Shown here piece by piece: positions 12,418 to 26,364 of a stretch of 64,000 nt of DNA. How positions within the stretch are numbered: position 1 is the first letter of the stretch; the number at the start of each line of letters is the position of its first letter. The stretch covers positions 1 through 64,000 of the forward strand of contig NZ_QCZF01000012.1 of the NCBI RefSeq assembly GCF_003075095.1, in the 5' to 3' direction. A model generated the notes under the pieces. That model did not search any database. It saw nothing but the letters and a program-made list of their open reading frames with translations, and had not been told where the DNA came from. Position numbers and translations under genes: made by a program. This DNA comes from Blastococcus litoris. Lineage in GTDB: Bacteria; Actinomycetota; Actinomycetes; Mycobacteriales; Geodermatophilaceae.

Positions 12418-12690
12418 CTACAGCCGGCCCCGGCCCTGGCGCAGCAGCAGCATCCCGAGCGCTGCGCCGTCCGGGCCGAGCGCGGTGCGGAAGCGGTCGA
12501 GCACCTGCTGCTCGCGGGAGAGGTTGAGCCGGGTGCCGCCGCTGGCCGACCGCAGCTCACCGATCTGCTGCGACACGGCCACGCGCTTCTGGACCAGCTC
12601 GATGATGGCGGCGTCGCAGGCGTCGATCTGGGCGCGCAGCTCGCCGATGCTCTCGACGTCGGTGCCGGTGACGGCGGTGGGAGTGCTCAC
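12418..12690 (-). CDS. Chorismate mutase, AroQ-delta type
   Basis: A 90-residue chorismate mutase that converts chorismate to prephenate for Phe and Tyr synthesis. It matches the actinobacterial AroQ-delta class of M. tuberculosis Rv0948c: ELRAQIDACDAAIIELVQKR, then ASGGTRLNLSRE and the end LLLRQGRGRL. The M. tuberculosis enzyme ends with two further residues, Gly-His, that contribute to contact with DAHP synthase; they are absent here. GTG at 12690 has GGAGG 8 nt upstream. A leader peptide and terminator-like hairpin precede the gene, so attenuation by aromatic amino acids is likely. It is divergent from pcrA, as in M. tuberculosis. Confidence 0.93.
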   Translation of the reverse strand: MSTPTAVTGTDVESIGELRAQIDACDAAIIELVQKRVAVSQQIGELRSASGGTRLNLSREQQVLDRFRTALGPDGAALGMLLLRQGRGRL

Positions 12691-12738
12691 GGGATGTCCT
12701 CCGGGGGTGGGTGGCCGTCAGGTCCCCGGAGACGAAGA

Positions 12739-12768
12739 ACGCCCCGGGGCTCTTCGGGCCCGGGGCGT
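12739..12768 (-). terminator. Attenuator-type terminator upstream of chorismate mutase
   Basis: A 10-bp perfect stem (arms 12739-12748 and 12759-12768) with a 10-nt loop is followed on the minus strand by TTCTTCGTCT, a pyrimidine-rich tail. It lies between the leader peptide stop and the chorismate mutase ribosome binding site, the place expected of an attenuator terminator. Confidence 0.7.
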
Positions 12769-12784
12769 CTGTTGCGGCGGTTGC

Positions 12785-12847
12785 TCAGCCAGCGGTGACG
12801 GACACCGGATCCCGGTGGCCGTAGTAAAAGCTGACCGTGGCGAGCAC
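12785..12847 (-). CDS. Leader peptide with Phe-Tyr-Tyr codons for chorismate mutase attenuation
   Basis: A 20-codon open frame, GTG at 12847 to TGA at 12785, too short for normal gene calling. It encodes VLATVSFYYGHRDPVSVTAG, with Phe, Tyr, Tyr in a row at codons 7-9, products of the pathway the downstream enzyme feeds. The stop lies 17 nt before a terminator-like hairpin. CAGACT 7 nt upstream suggests translation of a leaderless transcript, which would put a ribosome on the leader at once. Stalling at scarce Phe-tRNA or Tyr-tRNA would favour read-through into chorismate mutase. All this is inference from layout, but the coincidence of codons, position and hairpin is strong. Confidence 0.7.
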   Translation of the reverse strand: MLATVSFYYGHRDPVSVTAG

Positions 12848-12854
12848 GGATCGG

Positions 12855-12860
12855 AGTCTG
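12855..12860 (-). promoter_or_regulatory. CAGACT -10-like element of the leader peptide transcript
   Basis: CAGACT on the minus strand lies exactly 7 nt before the leader GTG at 12847. Transcription would begin at the first leader codon. It lies back to back with the pcrA promoter, about 90 bp apart. Confidence 0.5.
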
Positions 12861-12962: not shown

Positions 12963-15257
12963 ATGAGCAGCGTCCAGGAAGCCCTCCCCGGCACAGCCGC
13001 ACTCCAGCGCACGGCCAAGGGGTCCGTCGGGCGCGAGCTCGAGCGGATGCTCGCCGGGCTCAACGGCCCGCAGCGCCAGGCCGTCGTCCACGAGGGCGGC
13101 CCGTTGCTCATCGTCGCCGGTGCGGGCTCGGGCAAGACCCGGGTGCTGGCGCACCGGATCGCCTACCTCCTCGGGGCCCGGCACACCCAGCCGGGCGAGA
13201 TCCTCGCGATCACGTTCACGAACAAGGCTGCCGGCGAGATGAAGGAGCGGGTGGCCCACCTGGTCGGCCCCCGCGCCCGCGCCATGTGGGTCTCCACGTT
13301 CCACTCGATGTGCGTCCGCATCCTGCGGGCCGAGGCGGCCAAGCTGGGCCTGAAGTCGTCGTTCACCATCTACGACCAGGGCGACTCGGTGCGGCTGATG
13401 ACGATGGTCGCCCGCGACCTCGATCTCGACGCCAAGCGCTACCCCGGCCGCAGCCTGGCCGCGCAGGTCTCGAACCTGAAGAACGAGCTGGTCGACGAGG
13501 AGGCCTACGTCCCGCAGACGGCGCCGGAGAAGGTGCTGGCCGAGGCCTACAAGCTCTACCAGCAGCGGCTGCGCCAGGCGCACTCGATGGACTTCGACGA
13601 CCTGATCATGAACACCGTGCACCTGCTGCAGGCGTTCCCCGACGTCGCCGAGCACTACCGGCGCCGGTTCCGCCACGTCCTGGTCGACGAGTACCAGGAC
13701 ACCAACCACGCGCAGTACATGCTGGTGCGCGAGCTGGTCGGGGACGGCGCGGGCCCGGTGCCGATGGCGGAGCTGTGCGTCGTCGGCGACGCCGACCAGT
13801 CGATCTACGCCTTCCGCGGCGCGACGATCCGCAACATCGACGAGTTCGAGCGCGACTACCCGCAGGCCACCACGATCCTGCTGGAGCAGAACTACCGCTC
13901 GACCCAGCGGATCCTCAAGGCGGCCAACCAGGTCATCTCGAAGAACACCGGCCGCCGTCCCAAGAACCTGTGGACCGACTCGGGCGACGGCGAGCTGATC
14001 GAGGGCTACGTCGCCGACAACGAGCACGACGAGGCGGCCTGGGTCGCCGAGCAGATCGACGCGCTCGTCGACGAGGGCACGGCCCAGCCCAAGGACATCG
14101 CGGTCTTCTACCGCACGAACAACGCCTCCCGTGTGTTCGAAGAGGTGTTCATCCGGGTCGGCATGCCCTACAAGGTCGTCGGCGGCGTGCGCTTCTACGA
14201 GCGCAAGGAGGTCCGCGACGCGCTGGCCTACCTCAAGGTGGTCGCCAACCCGGCCGACGTGGTGAGCCTGCGCCGGGTCATCAACACCCCGAAGCGCGGC
14301 ATCGGCGACCGGGCCGAGGCGTGCATCGAGAACTTCGCCGACCGGGAGCGGATCGCTTTCGCCTCGGCGCTGCGCCGCTGTTCCGAGATCGGCGACCTGG
14401 CCACGCGCTCGCTCAAGGCGATCCAGGAGTTCGTCGCGCTGCTCGAGGAGTTCGAGCAGCTGGTGGAGACCGGTTCCGGCCCCGCCGCGCTGCTGGAGAG
14501 CATCCTCGACCGCACCGGCTACCTGGCCGAGCTGCAGGCCAGCACCGACCCGCAGGACGAGGGGCGCGTCGACAACCTCAACGAGCTCATCTCGGTCGCG
14601 GCGGAGTTCGAGGCGGCCAACCCGAACGGCACGGTCACCGATTTCCTCGAGCAGGTGTCCCTGGTCGCCGACGCCGACCAGATCCCGGTCACCGGTGACG
14701 ACGCCGGCGTGGTGACGATGATGACGCTGCACACCGCCAAGGGGCTGGAGTTCCCGGTCGTCTTCCTGACCGGCCTCGAGGACGGCGTCTTCCCGCACCT
14801 GCGGGCGCTCGGCGACCCGCACGAGCTGGAGGAGGAGCGCCGGCTGGCCTACGTGGGCATCACCCGCGCCCAGCAGCGGCTGTTCCTGTCCCGGGCGCAG
14901 GTCCGCACGAGCTGGGGCCAGCCCTCGTACAACCCGCCGTCGCGCTTCCTCGACGAGCTGCCGGCCGACACGGTGCACTGGGCGCGGCTGGAGCCCGCCC
15001 CCGCGTCGACGGGCTACTCCTCGGCGCAGTCGCGCGTGGCCGCCACCGGGCTGTCCACCGGCGGGCTGCGCGGCGGCGCCGGCAACCGGCCGATCATCTC
15101 GGTGGACGTCGGCGACCGGGTGAGCCACGACGCTTTCGGCCTCGGCACGGTCGTCGAGGTCACCGGCGTCGGCGACAAGGCGCAGGCGACCGTGGACTTC
15201 GGCTCCGGCGGCACCAAGCGTCTCGTCCTGCGCTACGCCCCCCTCGTCAAGCTCTAG
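12963..15257 (+). CDS. pcrA: ATP-dependent DNA helicase PcrA/UvrD
   Basis: A 764-residue superfamily 1A 3'-5' DNA helicase for repair and replication restart. Walker A GAGSGKT is at residues 53-59, motif II is VDEYQDTN, motif III GDADQSIYAFRGA, and motif VI lies in YVGITRAQQRLFL. The C-terminal Tudor-like segment (DRVSHDAFGLGTVVEV) that binds RNA polymerase in PcrA/UvrD proteins is present. ATG at 12963 fits the family N-terminus; a longer frame from 12837 would run through the promoter region. It is divergent from chorismate mutase and convergent with the M23 peptidase gene, the order of Rv0948c-Rv0950c (uvrD1). Confidence 0.96.
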   Translation: MSSVQEALPGTAALQRTAKGSVGRELERMLAGLNGPQRQAVVHEGGPLLIVAGAGSGKTRVLAHRIAYLLGARHTQPGEILAITFTNKAAGEMKERVAHLVGPRARAMWVSTFHSMCVRILRAEAAKLGLKSSFTIYDQGDSVRLMTMVARDLDLDAKRYPGRSLAAQVSNLKNELVDEEAYVPQTAPEKVLAEAYKLYQQRLRQAHSMDFDDLIMNTVHLLQAFPDVAEHYRRRFRHVLVDEYQDTNHAQYMLVRELVGDGAGPVPMAELCVVGDADQSIYAFRGATIRNIDEFERDYPQATTILLEQNYRSTQRILKAANQVISKNTGRRPKNLWTDSGDGELIEGYVADNEHDEAAWVAEQIDALVDEGTAQPKDIAVFYRTNNASRVFEEVFIRVGMPYKVVGGVRFYERKEVRDALAYLKVVANPADVVSLRRVINTPKRGIGDRAEACIENFADRERIAFASALRRCSEIGDLATRSLKAIQEFVALLEEFEQLVETGSGPAALLESILDRTGYLAELQASTDPQDEGRVDNLNELISVAAEFEAANPNGTVTDFLEQVSLVADADQIPVTGDDAGVVTMMTLHTAKGLEFPVVFLTGLEDGVFPHLRALGDPHELEEERRLAYVGITRAQQRLFLSRAQVRTSWGQPSYNPPSRFLDELPADTVHWARLEPAPASTGYSSAQSRVAATGLSTGGLRGGAGNRPIISVDVGDRVSHDAFGLGTVVEVTGVGDKAQATVDFGSGGTKRLVLRYAPLVKL

Positions 15258-23341: not shown

Positions 23342-24448
23342 ATGACCTCCAGCCAGCCGCCCCAGCCGCCCTCGGGCGAGCAGCCGGGGCCCGGGCACCC
23401 GCAGCAGCCCCCGCCGCCGGCGCAGCCGCCGTACGGGCAGCAGCCCCCGCAGGGCTACGGGAGCCCGCAGGGTCCGGGTCACCAGCCCCCGCCGGGCTAC
23501 CAGCCGCCACCCGCCCAGCAGCCCCCACCGGGCTACGGCCAGCCGCCCCCGCCCGGCTACGGGCAGCCGCCCGGCTACGGCCCGCCTCCGGGTTACGGCC
23601 CGCCGCCCGGCTACGGGCCGCCGCAGGGCTACCAGCCCGGCTACGGCCAGCCGGGGTGGGGCCCGCCCCCCGGGTACCCGCCGGTCCGGCCCGCGGGCAG
23701 CGGCTTCTCCTTCGATCTGAAGCGGCTTCGGGTCGCCGACTACGTCATCGCCGCCGGGACGGTCCTCTACTTCGTCTGGGCGCTGTTCCCGTGGGAGACC
23801 TTCGGGGACGACTTCTTCAGCTTCAGCCGCAGCGGCTTCGACTTCAGCAACGTGACGTCGGCGTTCGTCCTGCTCGTCCTCGCCACGGCGTGGGCGCTGC
23901 TCCCGGCCTTCGTCGACCTGAAGCTCGGCTTCCCGCGGTCGTGGGTCACCGTCGCGCTCACGGCGCTGGCCTGGCTGCTCACCCTGTTCGCCTGGCTGGA
24001 GAGCATGGACACCGGGTTCACCGTGTGGCCCCTGCTCGGCTTCCTGACCTCGACCGCGGTGCTGGTGATCGCCGGGCTGTCCCTGATCCCCGAGATCCGC
24101 AACCGGCCGTCCCTGCCGAGCGGGCTGGCCGGTGCCGCCCAGTGGGCCAACCAGCCCGCCCCGGACTTCGGCCAGCGCCCGGGCGGCCCGCAGCAGGCCT
24201 ACGGCCAGCAGGGACCGGGCCAGCACGGGCTCGGGCAGCAGGGGCACGGGCAGCAGGGGCACGGCCCGGGCTACGGGCAGCCCGGCCAGCAGTACGGGCA
24301 GCCGGCCCAGCCCTACTCGTCGGCCCCACCGCCGCCGCCTCCGCAGTCGGCCCCGGCCCCGCCTCCGGCGCCGCCGTCCGAGGGCGGCTCGACCGCGTCC
24401 GGTGAGGGCTCGGGCACTCCCGGTTCCGGCGAGCGGCCTCCCGCCTGA
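23342..24448 (+). CDS. DUF5336-like proline/glutamine-rich membrane protein (Rv0954-like)
   Basis: A 368-residue protein in three parts. Residues 1-120 are a low-complexity cytoplasmic tail of repeated PPPGYGQ/QPPGYG units. Residues about 135-255 contain four transmembrane helices (DYVIAAGTVLYFVWALFPW first). The rest is again Gln/Gly/Pro-rich with GQQGHGQ repeats. Position between sucD and perM equals that of Rv0954 in M. tuberculosis, reported to be linked to the divisome; that function is carried over by synteny only. ATG at 23342 follows GAGGAG. The Pro-rich repeats probably mediate protein contacts rather than catalysis. Confidence 0.78.
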   Translation: MTSSQPPQPPSGEQPGPGHPQQPPPPAQPPYGQQPPQGYGSPQGPGHQPPPGYQPPPAQQPPPGYGQPPPPGYGQPPGYGPPPGYGPPPGYGPPQGYQPGYGQPGWGPPPGYPPVRPAGSGFSFDLKRLRVADYVIAAGTVLYFVWALFPWETFGDDFFSFSRSGFDFSNVTSAFVLLVLATAWALLPAFVDLKLGFPRSWVTVALTALAWLLTLFAWLESMDTGFTVWPLLGFLTSTAVLVIAGLSLIPEIRNRPSLPSGLAGAAQWANQPAPDFGQRPGGPQQAYGQQGPGQHGLGQQGHGQQGHGPGYGQPGQQYGQPAQPYSSAPPPPPPQSAPAPPPAPPSEGGSTASGEGSGTPGSGERPPA

Positions 24449-24452
24449 TCGA

Positions 24453-24492
24453 CGCGCCGGGACCGCCCGATATCGGGTCCGGTCCCGGCGCG
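24453..24492 (+). terminator. Intrinsic terminator after the DUF5336-like gene
   Basis: A 12-bp perfect stem (24453-24464 with 24481-24492) encloses a second self-complementary segment CCCGATATCGGG. It begins 5 nt after the stop codon and lies before the separate perM promoter region. Confidence 0.75.
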
Positions 24493-24520
24493 TGCGGCCG
24501 CGTCGGCCCCCTCCTCTTGC

Positions 24521-24526
24521 GAGAGT
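24521..24526 (+). promoter_or_regulatory. Weak -10 element of perM
   Basis: GAGAGT ends 6 nt before the GTG at 24533. It fits NANNNT only loosely, and a G-rich run between it and the start could instead act as a poor ribosome binding site. Confidence 0.3.
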
Positions 24527-24532
24527 GGGGAC

Positions 24533-25708
24533 GTGGTCTCCCTGCTCGCGCGCCTGCCCCGGACCGGCCGTGCGGGCTCCGTACCGGTCGTCGCGCTGGC
24601 CGGCGCCGCGGCTCTGGCCGTCAGCGCCGCCGCCCTGGCAGGTCTCGCCCTCGCGCTGGTCGTCGTCCAGACCCTCGACCCGAGCGGCGGCCGGTCCGTC
24701 GGTGACTCGGTCGTGCTGGCCGGCCGGCTGTTGCTCCTCGCCCAGGGCGGGGAGCTCGGCCTCGACTCCGGCCCGCTGGTGCTCGCGCCGCTGCTGCTCA
24801 CGCTCGGCCTCGCGTGGGGGCTGTCCCAGGCCGGCCGCGGGATCGCCCGCGTGCGACCGCCGTCGTCCGGAGCCGATGCGGCCCGGGCGGTGGGCACGGT
24901 CGTCGCCGTCCACGTGCTCCTCACCGTCGTCCTGGCTCTGGTCGTGGACGCGCCCGGCGCGCGGGTCGGGCTGCTCCGGACGGTGGCCGGTGCCGCCGTG
25001 CTGGCACTCGTGGCCACGGGCTGGGGCGTCGCGCGCGAGTCGGGCTCCCTCGACGCGGTGCTCGACCGCGGCTCCACCCGCGCGGTGCTGCGCGGGGTCG
25101 TGGCCGGGCTGCTGACGGCGCTCGCGCTGTGCACCGGTGTCGTGGCGGTCGCCCTGGTCTCCGACGCCGGCGGCTACGCGGCGCTGTCGGGCTCGCTGGG
25201 CGGCGCCGGCGCGGGTGCGGTCGGGCTCGCCGGGCTGGCCCTGCTCCTGCTGCCCAACGCGGCGGGAGCCGTGCTCGGGCTCGCCGCCGGGCCCGGCTTC
25301 CACGTCGGCTCCGGCACCTTCGTCTCGGTGCACGGTGTGACCCTCGACGCCGTCCCCGCCCTGCCGATGCTCGCCGCCCTGCCCGACACCCAGGCCGTCC
25401 CGCTGATCGCGTTCGTCTCCCAGGCGATCCCGGCGCTGGCCGGGCTGGTCGCCGGTACGGCGGTGGGCCGCTGGCTCGGCGACGAGCACGGTGGCTCGGT
25501 CGTGGCCGGGCTGAACGGTGTCCTGACCGGGGTGCTGCTCGGGGTGGCCGGCGGGGTGCTGGTCTGGATCGCGGGGGGATCCCTCGGCGACGGCGCCCTC
25601 GCCGAGGTGGGCGCCCCCCCGGTGGCCACGGGTATCGCGATCGCCGCCCAGAGCGGTATCGCGGCGGCGGTCGCCGCAGCCGTCGCCCGCTGGCGGGCCC
25701 ACGGCTGA
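24533..25708 (+). CDS. perM: DUF6350 polytopic membrane protein, PerM-like
   Basis: A 391-residue, very hydrophobic protein with about nine or ten helices, starting [12 protein letters not shown] after the first helix and ending with a helix before RWRAHG. The family (DUF6350) includes M. tuberculosis PerM (Rv0955), an integral membrane protein tied to cell division and persistence. That gene also stands between Rv0954 and purN, so orthology is likely. Residues [19 protein letters not shown] near the C-terminus form a conserved-looking loop and helix. GTG at 24533 is the only suitable start. purN begins 44 nt downstream from its own promoter. Confidence 0.85.
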
Positions 25709-25739
25709 CGGCGCCGACGGTCGCGCCCGGGCCCGCGGC

Positions 25740-25745
25740 TAGGGT
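25740..25745 (+). promoter_or_regulatory. -10 element of purN (leaderless start)
   Basis: TAGGGT ends 7 nt before the GTG at 25753; no ribosome binding site is present. This settles the purN start, since the open frame runs far upstream through perM. Confidence 0.55.
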
Positions 25746-25752
25746 TCCGTGC

Positions 25753-26364
25753 GTGCCCGCCACCGAGCCCGTCGAGCGGGCCCGTGTCGCCGTCCTGCTG
25801 TCCGGCACCGGCTCCCTGTGCGCCGCGCTGCTCGCCGCGGCCGACGACCCCGCCTACCCCGCGACGGTCGTGGTCGTGGGCGCCGACCGGGAGGCGGCCG
25901 GCCTGGAGCACGCCCGCCGGCGCGGTATCCCGACGTTCGTCCGCGCGCTGGGCGACCACCCCGACCGGGCCGCGTGGGACCGCGCGCTGGCCGCCGAGCT
26001 GGCCGCGCACCGGCCGGACCTCGTGGTGTCGGCCGGGTTCATGAAGCTGGTCGGTCCGGCGGTGCTGGACGCCTTCGGCGGACGGCTCGTCAACACCCAC
26101 CCCGCGCTGCTGCCGGCCTTCCCCGGCGCGCACGCCGTGCGCGACGCGCTGGCCGCCGGGGCGACGGTGACCGGCGCGACCGTGCACGTCGTCGACGCCG
26201 GTCTCGACACGGGTCCCGTCCTCGCCCAGCGCGAGGTCGCCGTCCGGCCGGACGACGACGAGGACCAGTTGCACGAACGGATCAAGGAAGTGGAGCGAGA
26301 GCTCCTGGTGGAGACGGTGGCGCAGCTCGTCACCGCCGAGCTGACGAGGAAGAGCGACCGATGA
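25753..26364 (+). CDS. purN: Phosphoribosylglycinamide formyltransferase
   Basis: PurN transfers a formyl group from 10-formyl-THF to GAR in purine synthesis. The 203-residue protein shows [16 protein letters not shown] at the N-terminus, the catalytic Asn-His pair in [15 protein letters not shown] and the aspartate in [11 protein letters not shown]. The usual GxGSN motif reads GTGSL here, a mild departure. GTG at 25753 is fixed by TAGGGT 7 nt upstream. The stop overlaps the purH start by 4 nt (ATGA), so the two are translationally coupled. folD, which makes the formyl donor, lies 3 kb downstream. Confidence 0.95.

Follow-up and report, generated by a model that had tools for sequence, protein, structure and literature searches.

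The first step committed to Phe and Tyr synthesis is catalyzed by chorismate mutase. The aroR attenuator of Corynebacterium glutamicum was reportedly described by Neshat et al. in 2014, the pheL leader of Escherichia coli contains a long Phe run and has a Shine-Dalgarno sequence, and polycysteine leaderless short ORFs in mycobacteria are said to have been reported by Canestrari in 2020. According to the accessible portions of PMC11802643 and PMC4046766, a leader with Phe-Tyr-Phe precedes aroF, a DAHP synthase gene, in C. glutamicum, and the former also covers the pheA leader (pheL) and the pheST attenuators of E. coli and its relatives. For actinobacteria, the accessible portion of a 2005 comparative survey gives no conserved RNA structure upstream of phenylalanine/tyrosine operons (PMC1262725), and the eight leaders of Streptomyces lividans in the available text of PMC8079986 include none for Phe or Tyr; several attenuators of this species are leaderless. 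Excerpts of PMC13236596 describe attenuation at ilvB1 of Mycobacterium tuberculosis and translation attenuation of cysteine genes; its Extended Data Fig. 5 shows further loci, with names absent from the legend, which may overlap with the element reported here. The literature searched, main texts of mostly open-access papers including the accessible parts of PMC2965389, PMC4633059, PMC9094748 and PMC7356990, yielded no description of a leader peptide at an actinobacterial chorismate mutase; an earlier sequence-only reading of the present locus knew of none either.

In this study, we analyzed a leader upstream of the chorismate mutase gene in a 64,000-nucleotide stretch of Blastococcus litoris DNA (the window). 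The closest relative of this putative attenuator is aroR at the C. glutamicum DAHP synthase. The two would share aromatic control codons, attenuation of an aromatic-pathway gene and the same bacterial order, but they differ in the gene and the pathway step; the gene behind the window leader is chorismate mutase and not DAHP synthase, which places it outside the aroR family. Further, DAHP-synthase leaders carry Trp beside Phe-Tyr-Phe, whereas chorismate mutase leaders carry F-F-Y-G or F-x-Y-G followed by a hairpin inside the coding sequence. Compared by description, E. coli pheL is similar in having Phe codons, alternative hairpins and a chorismate mutase under its control, which in E. coli is fused to prephenate dehydratase; the kind in the window differs in its AroQ-delta enzyme and in an F-Y run that is short and probably leaderless. 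The actinobacterial trp, leu and ilv attenuators also place control-codon leaders before amino-acid genes, but for other amino acids, and the polycysteine ORFs are likewise leaderless sensor ORFs in mycobacteria, but for cysteine.

Results

The locus reads on the minus strand as a -10-like element, 7 nt, the leader, 15 nt, a stem-loop, a pyrimidine tail, GGAGG and chorismate mutase. The leader ORF (12785..12847) starts with GTG at 12847-12845, has 20 codons and ends with TGA at 12785, encoding the peptide VLATVSFYYGHRDPVSVTAG with the control codons Phe-Tyr-Tyr (TTT TAC TAC) in a row at 12821..12829. CAGACT with an extended TG (TGGCAGACT) lies at 12855..12860, 7 nt upstream of the leader GTG, so placed that the transcript is probably leaderless; a consensus scan of the locus found no sigma-70 promoter. 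The terminator-like hairpin (12738..12769; left arm 12769-12759, right arm 12748-12738, loop of 10 nt) has 11 bp, including one G-U, begins 15 nt after the leader stop and is followed by CTTCGTCTC, a weak U tract; the same scan called no U-tract terminator here. The Shine-Dalgarno GGAGG of chorismate mutase (12698..12702) stands 7 nt before the gene GTG.

The chorismate mutase gene (12418..12690, minus strand) encodes 90 residues from a GTG start and is of the AroQ-delta type, like Rv0948c, with PF01817 at E 1.2e-12 in the domain search and 2qbv as the best PDB match (E 4e-19). 2qbv is Rv0948c, the AroQ-delta chorismate mutase of M. tuberculosis. The next gene upstream of the leader, a divergent pcrA/uvrD-type helicase on the plus strand (12963..15257; PF00580, PF13361), is not oriented toward the terminator.

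The sequence-only reading had described this frame with its aromatic codons, the GGAGG and the pyrimidine tail, all of which are present as it gave them, and its AroQ-delta assignment agrees with the domain and structure matches. It had also placed a 10-bp stem 17 nt behind the leader; the stem is there, but it is one pair longer, and the distance of 17 nt applies only when counting from CGCC. The observation of a leader with a terminator-like stem is thus confirmed.

The leader RNA of the window folds with a z-score of -2.54, and 3 of 200 shuffles folded equally well. Rfam 15 gave nothing in the window at gathering score, hence no assignment to the T-box or another Rfam family, and the local search at the leader gave a single match, ar7, at E 5 on the opposite strand. 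Elsewhere in the window, the ORF at 23342-24448 has Pro/Gly/Gln-rich repeats at both ends, with tandem repeats at 23396-23638 and 24190-24311, and the 2 kb beside it (24001-26000) has 79% GC and a strong AT skew.

Conservation was evaluated by a leader rule, namely an ORF with [FY]2+G or FxYG and a stop within 24 codons, at most 500 nt upstream of chorismate mutase. Of 61 genomes, 60 had a chorismate mutase, the window genome among them, and a leader by this rule, with codons for the end products Phe and Tyr and predicted to be translated, stood before it in 55 of the 60, again including the window's own. First-order Markov sequences gave a mean of 0.36 of 60 (maximum 2 of 60, 50 rounds) and reversed sequences 1 of 60; the leader therefore occurs above chance. 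The rule missed a FYADFFY variant without Gly (L039) and divergent aromatic ORFs in L042, L059 and L060, and no leader was seen upstream of chorismate mutase in L048.

A second set of 30 loci from a class search, three genomes of which were also in the first set, contained 9 loci without a leader by the rule, 8 of them in genera g31, g35, g36 and g224 of family f8 and one in g19. Within f8, chorismate mutase is present with no leader by the rule at L048/L067, L068-L071, L092, L098 and L117, and leader regulation may have been lost in several of its genera. The f8 locus of g19 (L114) has FIYG for FFYG, lacks both a stop where one is usual and a clear terminator, and looks like a decayed copy of the switch.

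The leaders of the window's family are mostly SFYYGHRDPVSVTAG or SFFYGHRDPVSVTAG, and those across the order are often FFYGYRxPVPV or FFYGYRxAVPVV. Some genomes have F-x-Y-G leaders with S, P, A, L, I or T as the middle residue. Family f18, of the same class and with larger genomes (presumably Streptomyces), has FTYG or FSYG leaders in the same layout at 11 of 11 loci. A chorismate mutase of family f88, also of this class (L300), is preceded by a divergent leader, MAMVRFYPDRPPVLDAA, and a possible stem follows this leader.

At E 0.01, the RNA model R1 matched 331 of the order's 396 genomes, representing 60 of 74 genera, with a few weak matches off the gene (e.g., G300 at E 0.004). In the class, 69 of 246 genomes were matched at the same threshold; f18 reached E 4e-7, and some class matches with E above about 1e-4 are unexplained. 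A leader pattern matched 41 of 298 genomes within the order, once each, with 0 matches in the reversed control; the first pattern required Phe directly before the last Tyr, so the window leader was not matched. In the genome collection, the pattern occurs in at least 118 stretches. Among these 118 matches, chorismate mutase follows on the same strand in 105, with its aligned start 133-248 nt from the pattern, 2 were ended by the contig and 11 without chorismate mutase are unrelated chance matches, of which the six listed all lay in other phyla. The matches listed include Mycobacterium, Mycolicibacterium, Rhodococcus, Pseudonocardia, Nakamurella, Jatrophihabitans and Blastococcus. The upstream comparison that the sequence-only reading had proposed thus came out in its favor, since conservation of the frame, its Phe/Tyr codons and the hairpins extends well beyond the genus, and the hairpins covary.

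A second copy of the element per genome was considered for 15 genomes with two matches. On re-running, 12 second matches were opposite-strand overlaps of the first, because the element is nearly palindromic; of the other three, one is a DAHP-synthase leader (G055), and two lie elsewhere (G048, L308; G735).

For start signals and codon choice, 168 leader rows were reduced to 135 and then to 133 nonredundant leaders. In 112 of these 133, an in-frame start follows a -10-like hexamer, at 6 or 7 nt in 110 and with GTG as the start in 106 of the 112, compared with 1 and 7 of 133 in frame-shift controls. The 21 leaders without this arrangement include several mycobacteria with a GTGCTC start further upstream; extra codons lie between that start and the aromatic run in mycobacterial L146, L177, L182, L199-L201, L215 and L229. 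The aromatic run has two to four residues before Gly in the 133 leaders, which is part of how they were selected. Among the 128 leaders with three aromatics, 123 have TTT as the first Phe codon (12827-12829 in the window), whereas all 52 Phe codons counted in six window coding sequences are TTC; the leader preference for TTT is unexplained. Arg is encoded by CGG in 116 of 133 leaders, and at the Pro/Ala position 132 of 133 have a codon with G in the third place, as the leader hairpin and the antiterminator described below would require.

Three helices were predicted. The first is a hairpin inside the leader on the minus strand, with arm 1 GGCCACCGG at 12820-12812, the loop GAT and arm 2 CCGGTGTCC at 12808-12800. 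It is encoded by the codons G-H-R-D-P-V-S (12800..12820), 8 of its 9 pairs form in the window, and its consensus, right after the aromatic run, is GGGUACCGG-NNN-SCGGUGCCC (G-Y-R-x-P/A-V-P). On 53 unique rows a mean of 8.0 of 9 pairs formed. In the alignment of 52 of these leaders (L051, with two aromatics, was left out), 88.9% of cells were paired and the covariation was 0.175 versus 0.087 in shuffled rows, with 0 of 500 shuffles as high; slid helices were 28.6-52.1% paired, and five or six kinds of standard pair occur at each of the column pairs 12-28 and 13-27. Family f18 keeps this hairpin with other codons, most commonly as TATGGCAACCGG-CCCA-CCGGCTGCCATG.

The second helix is the putative antiterminator on the minus strand, whose 5' arm CGGGATCCGG (12805..12814; codons R-D-P and the first base of V) would pair with a 3' arm in the terminator left arm and loop (12754..12763), as assigned by pairing and covariation. 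Its core joins the leader CGG-NNN-SCGG with CCGS-NNN-CCG of the terminator left arm. Among 57 rows, 81.5% of cells were paired, with a covariation of 0.200 versus 0.098 shuffled and 0 of 500 shuffles as high; slid by -1, the helix was still 64.5% paired with a covariation score of 0.159. These rows are 57 of 64 combinations, L011, L043, L046, L047, L049, L108 and L195 being left out for deviant or misassigned terminators. Cognate arms formed 7.63 of 10 pairs versus 7.00, a value that 0 of 10,000 re-pairings of the 64 unique combinations (132 leaders, L109 dropped) reached, with relatedness uncontrolled, and 7 of 10 pairs form in the window in the shared register. The sequence-only reading had proposed an antiterminator from the leader motifs CCGG (12808-12805) and CGTC (12800-12797), both of which lie where it located them. 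Its CCGG:CCGG pairing falls within the conserved 10-nt core (12814-12805 : 12763-12754), while the CGTC:GACG extension fits the window but is weak overall (67.5% of cells paired versus 62.5% shuffled; 31 of 500 shuffles reach its covariation score).

Where Ala (GCG) replaces Pro (CCG), as in mycobacteria, the facing terminator base is mostly C or U and not G, which is a mismatch inside the terminator itself. The pair at this position is broken in 10 of 57 rows, including L056, L095 and L129 (Ala with G) and L044, L167, L212 and L215 (Pro with A, C or U).

The third helix, the terminator between leader and gene, is conserved and covaries, and is predicted to be intrinsic in spite of the weak U tract. 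Its shared 8-bp part was paired in 96.5% of cells, with a covariation of 0.229 versus 0.101 shuffled and 0 of 500 shuffles as high. Positions 12812-12814 and 12805-12808 serve both the leader hairpin and the antiterminator, which are thus mutually exclusive, and the antiterminator shares the left arm with the terminator, as attenuation requires. The covariation shuffles do not remove relatedness, which the slides do in part. Further pair types were exceptional (0, 7 and 5 of 500 shuffles for the leader hairpin, antiterminator and terminator, respectively), whereas pairs changed on both sides, the measure least touched by relatedness, were not, with 256, 63 and 197 of 500 shuffles as high.

The switch was modeled by folding the RNA before the terminator right arm with an assumed ribosome footprint, 15 nt on the upstream and 12 nt on the downstream side of the A-site codon, held unpaired. 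In 127 of 133 leaders, the mean probability of pairing between the terminator left arm and the leader was 0.11 without a ribosome, 0.77, 0.67 and 0.51 with the ribosome at aromatic codons 1, 2 and 3 (125 leaders for the third), and 0.34 (median 0.21) at the stop. The window alone gave 0.10 without a ribosome, 0.65, 0.13 and 0.05 at its three aromatic codons and 0.71 at the stop. Stalling is thus predicted to free the antiterminator on average, less cleanly in the window, where the first (Phe) codon would be the effective one and the stop state would not be off under the assumed footprint; this stop-state result is the weakest point of the mechanism at the window locus. This design would respond more strongly to Phe than to Tyr. 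The contrast between the second aromatic codon and no ribosome was 0.56 for native leaders versus 0.14 for synonymous recodings, and native was higher in 42 of 45 leaders, these being leaders with exactly three aromatics, a located terminator and a distinct core.

In the window genome, inspection by eye of 700 nt found no aromatic leader at pheA (PF00800, L268) or DAHP synthase II (PF01474, L269), and the PF00793 DAHP synthase (L327) had no such leader. Elsewhere, leaders before DAHP synthase I are of the MQRNFWRFYGYRP or SFWYGDG type in f91 and of WYGY types in f5. Two genomes of genus g332, which we assume to be Corynebacterium, have the WRFYF leaders MRNWRFYFEWGSGR and MRMWRFYFSKAPEAETS before DAHP synthase, which resemble the described aroR (F-Y-F before aroF). 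An RNA model built only on chorismate mutase leaders matched 15 f91 genomes, and in 10 of 10 checked the best match lay directly upstream of DAHP synthase I. Trp is in or adjoins the aromatic run in all 14 DAHP-synthase leaders of f91, f5 and g332, whereas among the 133 chorismate mutase leaders it occurs within three codons before the run in 6 and never at or after it. These six are WRFFYG leaders, namely four mycobacterial rows, a Mycobacteroides and a Rhodococcus. They (L148, L167, L185, L213, L219 and L220) resemble the WRFYG of DAHP-synthase leaders, and WRFFYG looks like a link between the two kinds. The Trp/branch logic is a strong tendency, not a rule.

Several actinobacterial families have leaders with Trp and Phe and/or Tyr (WRFYGYRP, WYGY, FWYGDG and WRFYF) upstream of DAHP synthase I (L296-L299, L305, L310, L317, L321-L324 and L328-L335); these leaders probably form a wider family around aroR.

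Discussion

The element is very probably a ribosome-mediated transcription attenuator through which chorismate mutase is adjusted to the charged tRNA-Phe and tRNA-Tyr available, as judged from sequence comparison, folding models and the match between the Phe and Tyr control codons and an enzyme that opens the Phe/Tyr branch. The attenuator interpretation of the sequence-only reading is supported in this way, and the leader would regulate chorismate mutase. RNA polymerase would start at or next to the leader GTG, so that the leader would be translated without a Shine-Dalgarno sequence. With ample Phe and Tyr, the ribosome would reach the stop and cover the R-x-P-V codons, the terminator would form and transcription would end before the gene. 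Under shortage of Phe (or Tyr), the ribosome would stall on TTT TAC TAC and mask the 5' arm of the leader hairpin, leaving R-x-P-V free for the terminator left arm and permitting read-through. Without translation, the leader hairpin would form and the terminator would win. The mechanism would be classical and ordinary; it is anchored by comparison, is apparently undescribed at chorismate mutase and appears unusually widespread.

The residues past the aromatic run (G-Y/H-R-x-P/A-V) are kept across families, which would also be expected if the nascent FYGxRxPV peptide itself, rather than a shortage of charged tRNA, arrested the ribosome. We consider such an arrest quite improbable, since this stretch is the RNA hairpin and its amino-acid changes mostly preserve pairing, which is kept even in GSGHPAA and GTGSPAA leaders and in the f18 YGNRPTGCHG. 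Moreover, S, P, A, L, I or T can stand between Phe and Tyr, and synonymous recoding abolishes most of the predicted switch.

Control at the level of translation, in which leader translation or the hairpins expose or hide the chorismate mutase Shine-Dalgarno and the stem is no working terminator, would agree with the weak U tract. A second hairpin that may hide the Shine-Dalgarno appears in the window fold, with a predicted pairing of 0.85, and this pairing is at least 0.72 in 7 of 9 scorable family members, an uncontrolled comparison in GC-rich RNA, which pairs readily. Against this, 7 of 16 family members have no GGAG-type site by pattern and hence were unscored, the window stem ends 35 nt before the Shine-Dalgarno, and the stem covaries and keeps its position behind the leader; we therefore give this mode of control very little chance. 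A constitutive terminator with a chance ORF and no regulation is hardly credible and in our view refuted by conservation, for although terminators and short ORFs are common, pcrA is divergent, so that no neighboring gene ends here, and leader and terminator co-occur upstream of chorismate mutase in many genomes.

Beyond chorismate mutase, Actinomycetes may have a class-wide family of aromatic attenuators, with sequence-related leaders at two committed steps and codons matched to the branch, a proposal on which we lean neither way. If it is true, DAHP synthase, at the pathway entry, would read Trp, Phe and Tyr (W-R-F-Y-G-Y-R), and chorismate mutase, past the Trp branch-off, would read mainly Phe and Tyr.

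The transcription attenuator proposed here would explain why the peptide is conserved past its control codons, as those codons would be the RNA switch, and would fill a gap explicitly left by the 2005 comparative survey, as worded in its accessible portion (PMC1262725). According to the available text of PMC7762937, AroQ-delta of M. tuberculosis is weak alone, and its high activity requires a complex with DAHP synthase; in our reading, regulation has therefore been viewed mainly as allosteric. The attenuator probably limits production of the enzyme to Phe/Tyr shortage; as a conserved element responding to Phe/Tyr, it would give this regulation a transcriptional layer in mycobacteria and much of the order.
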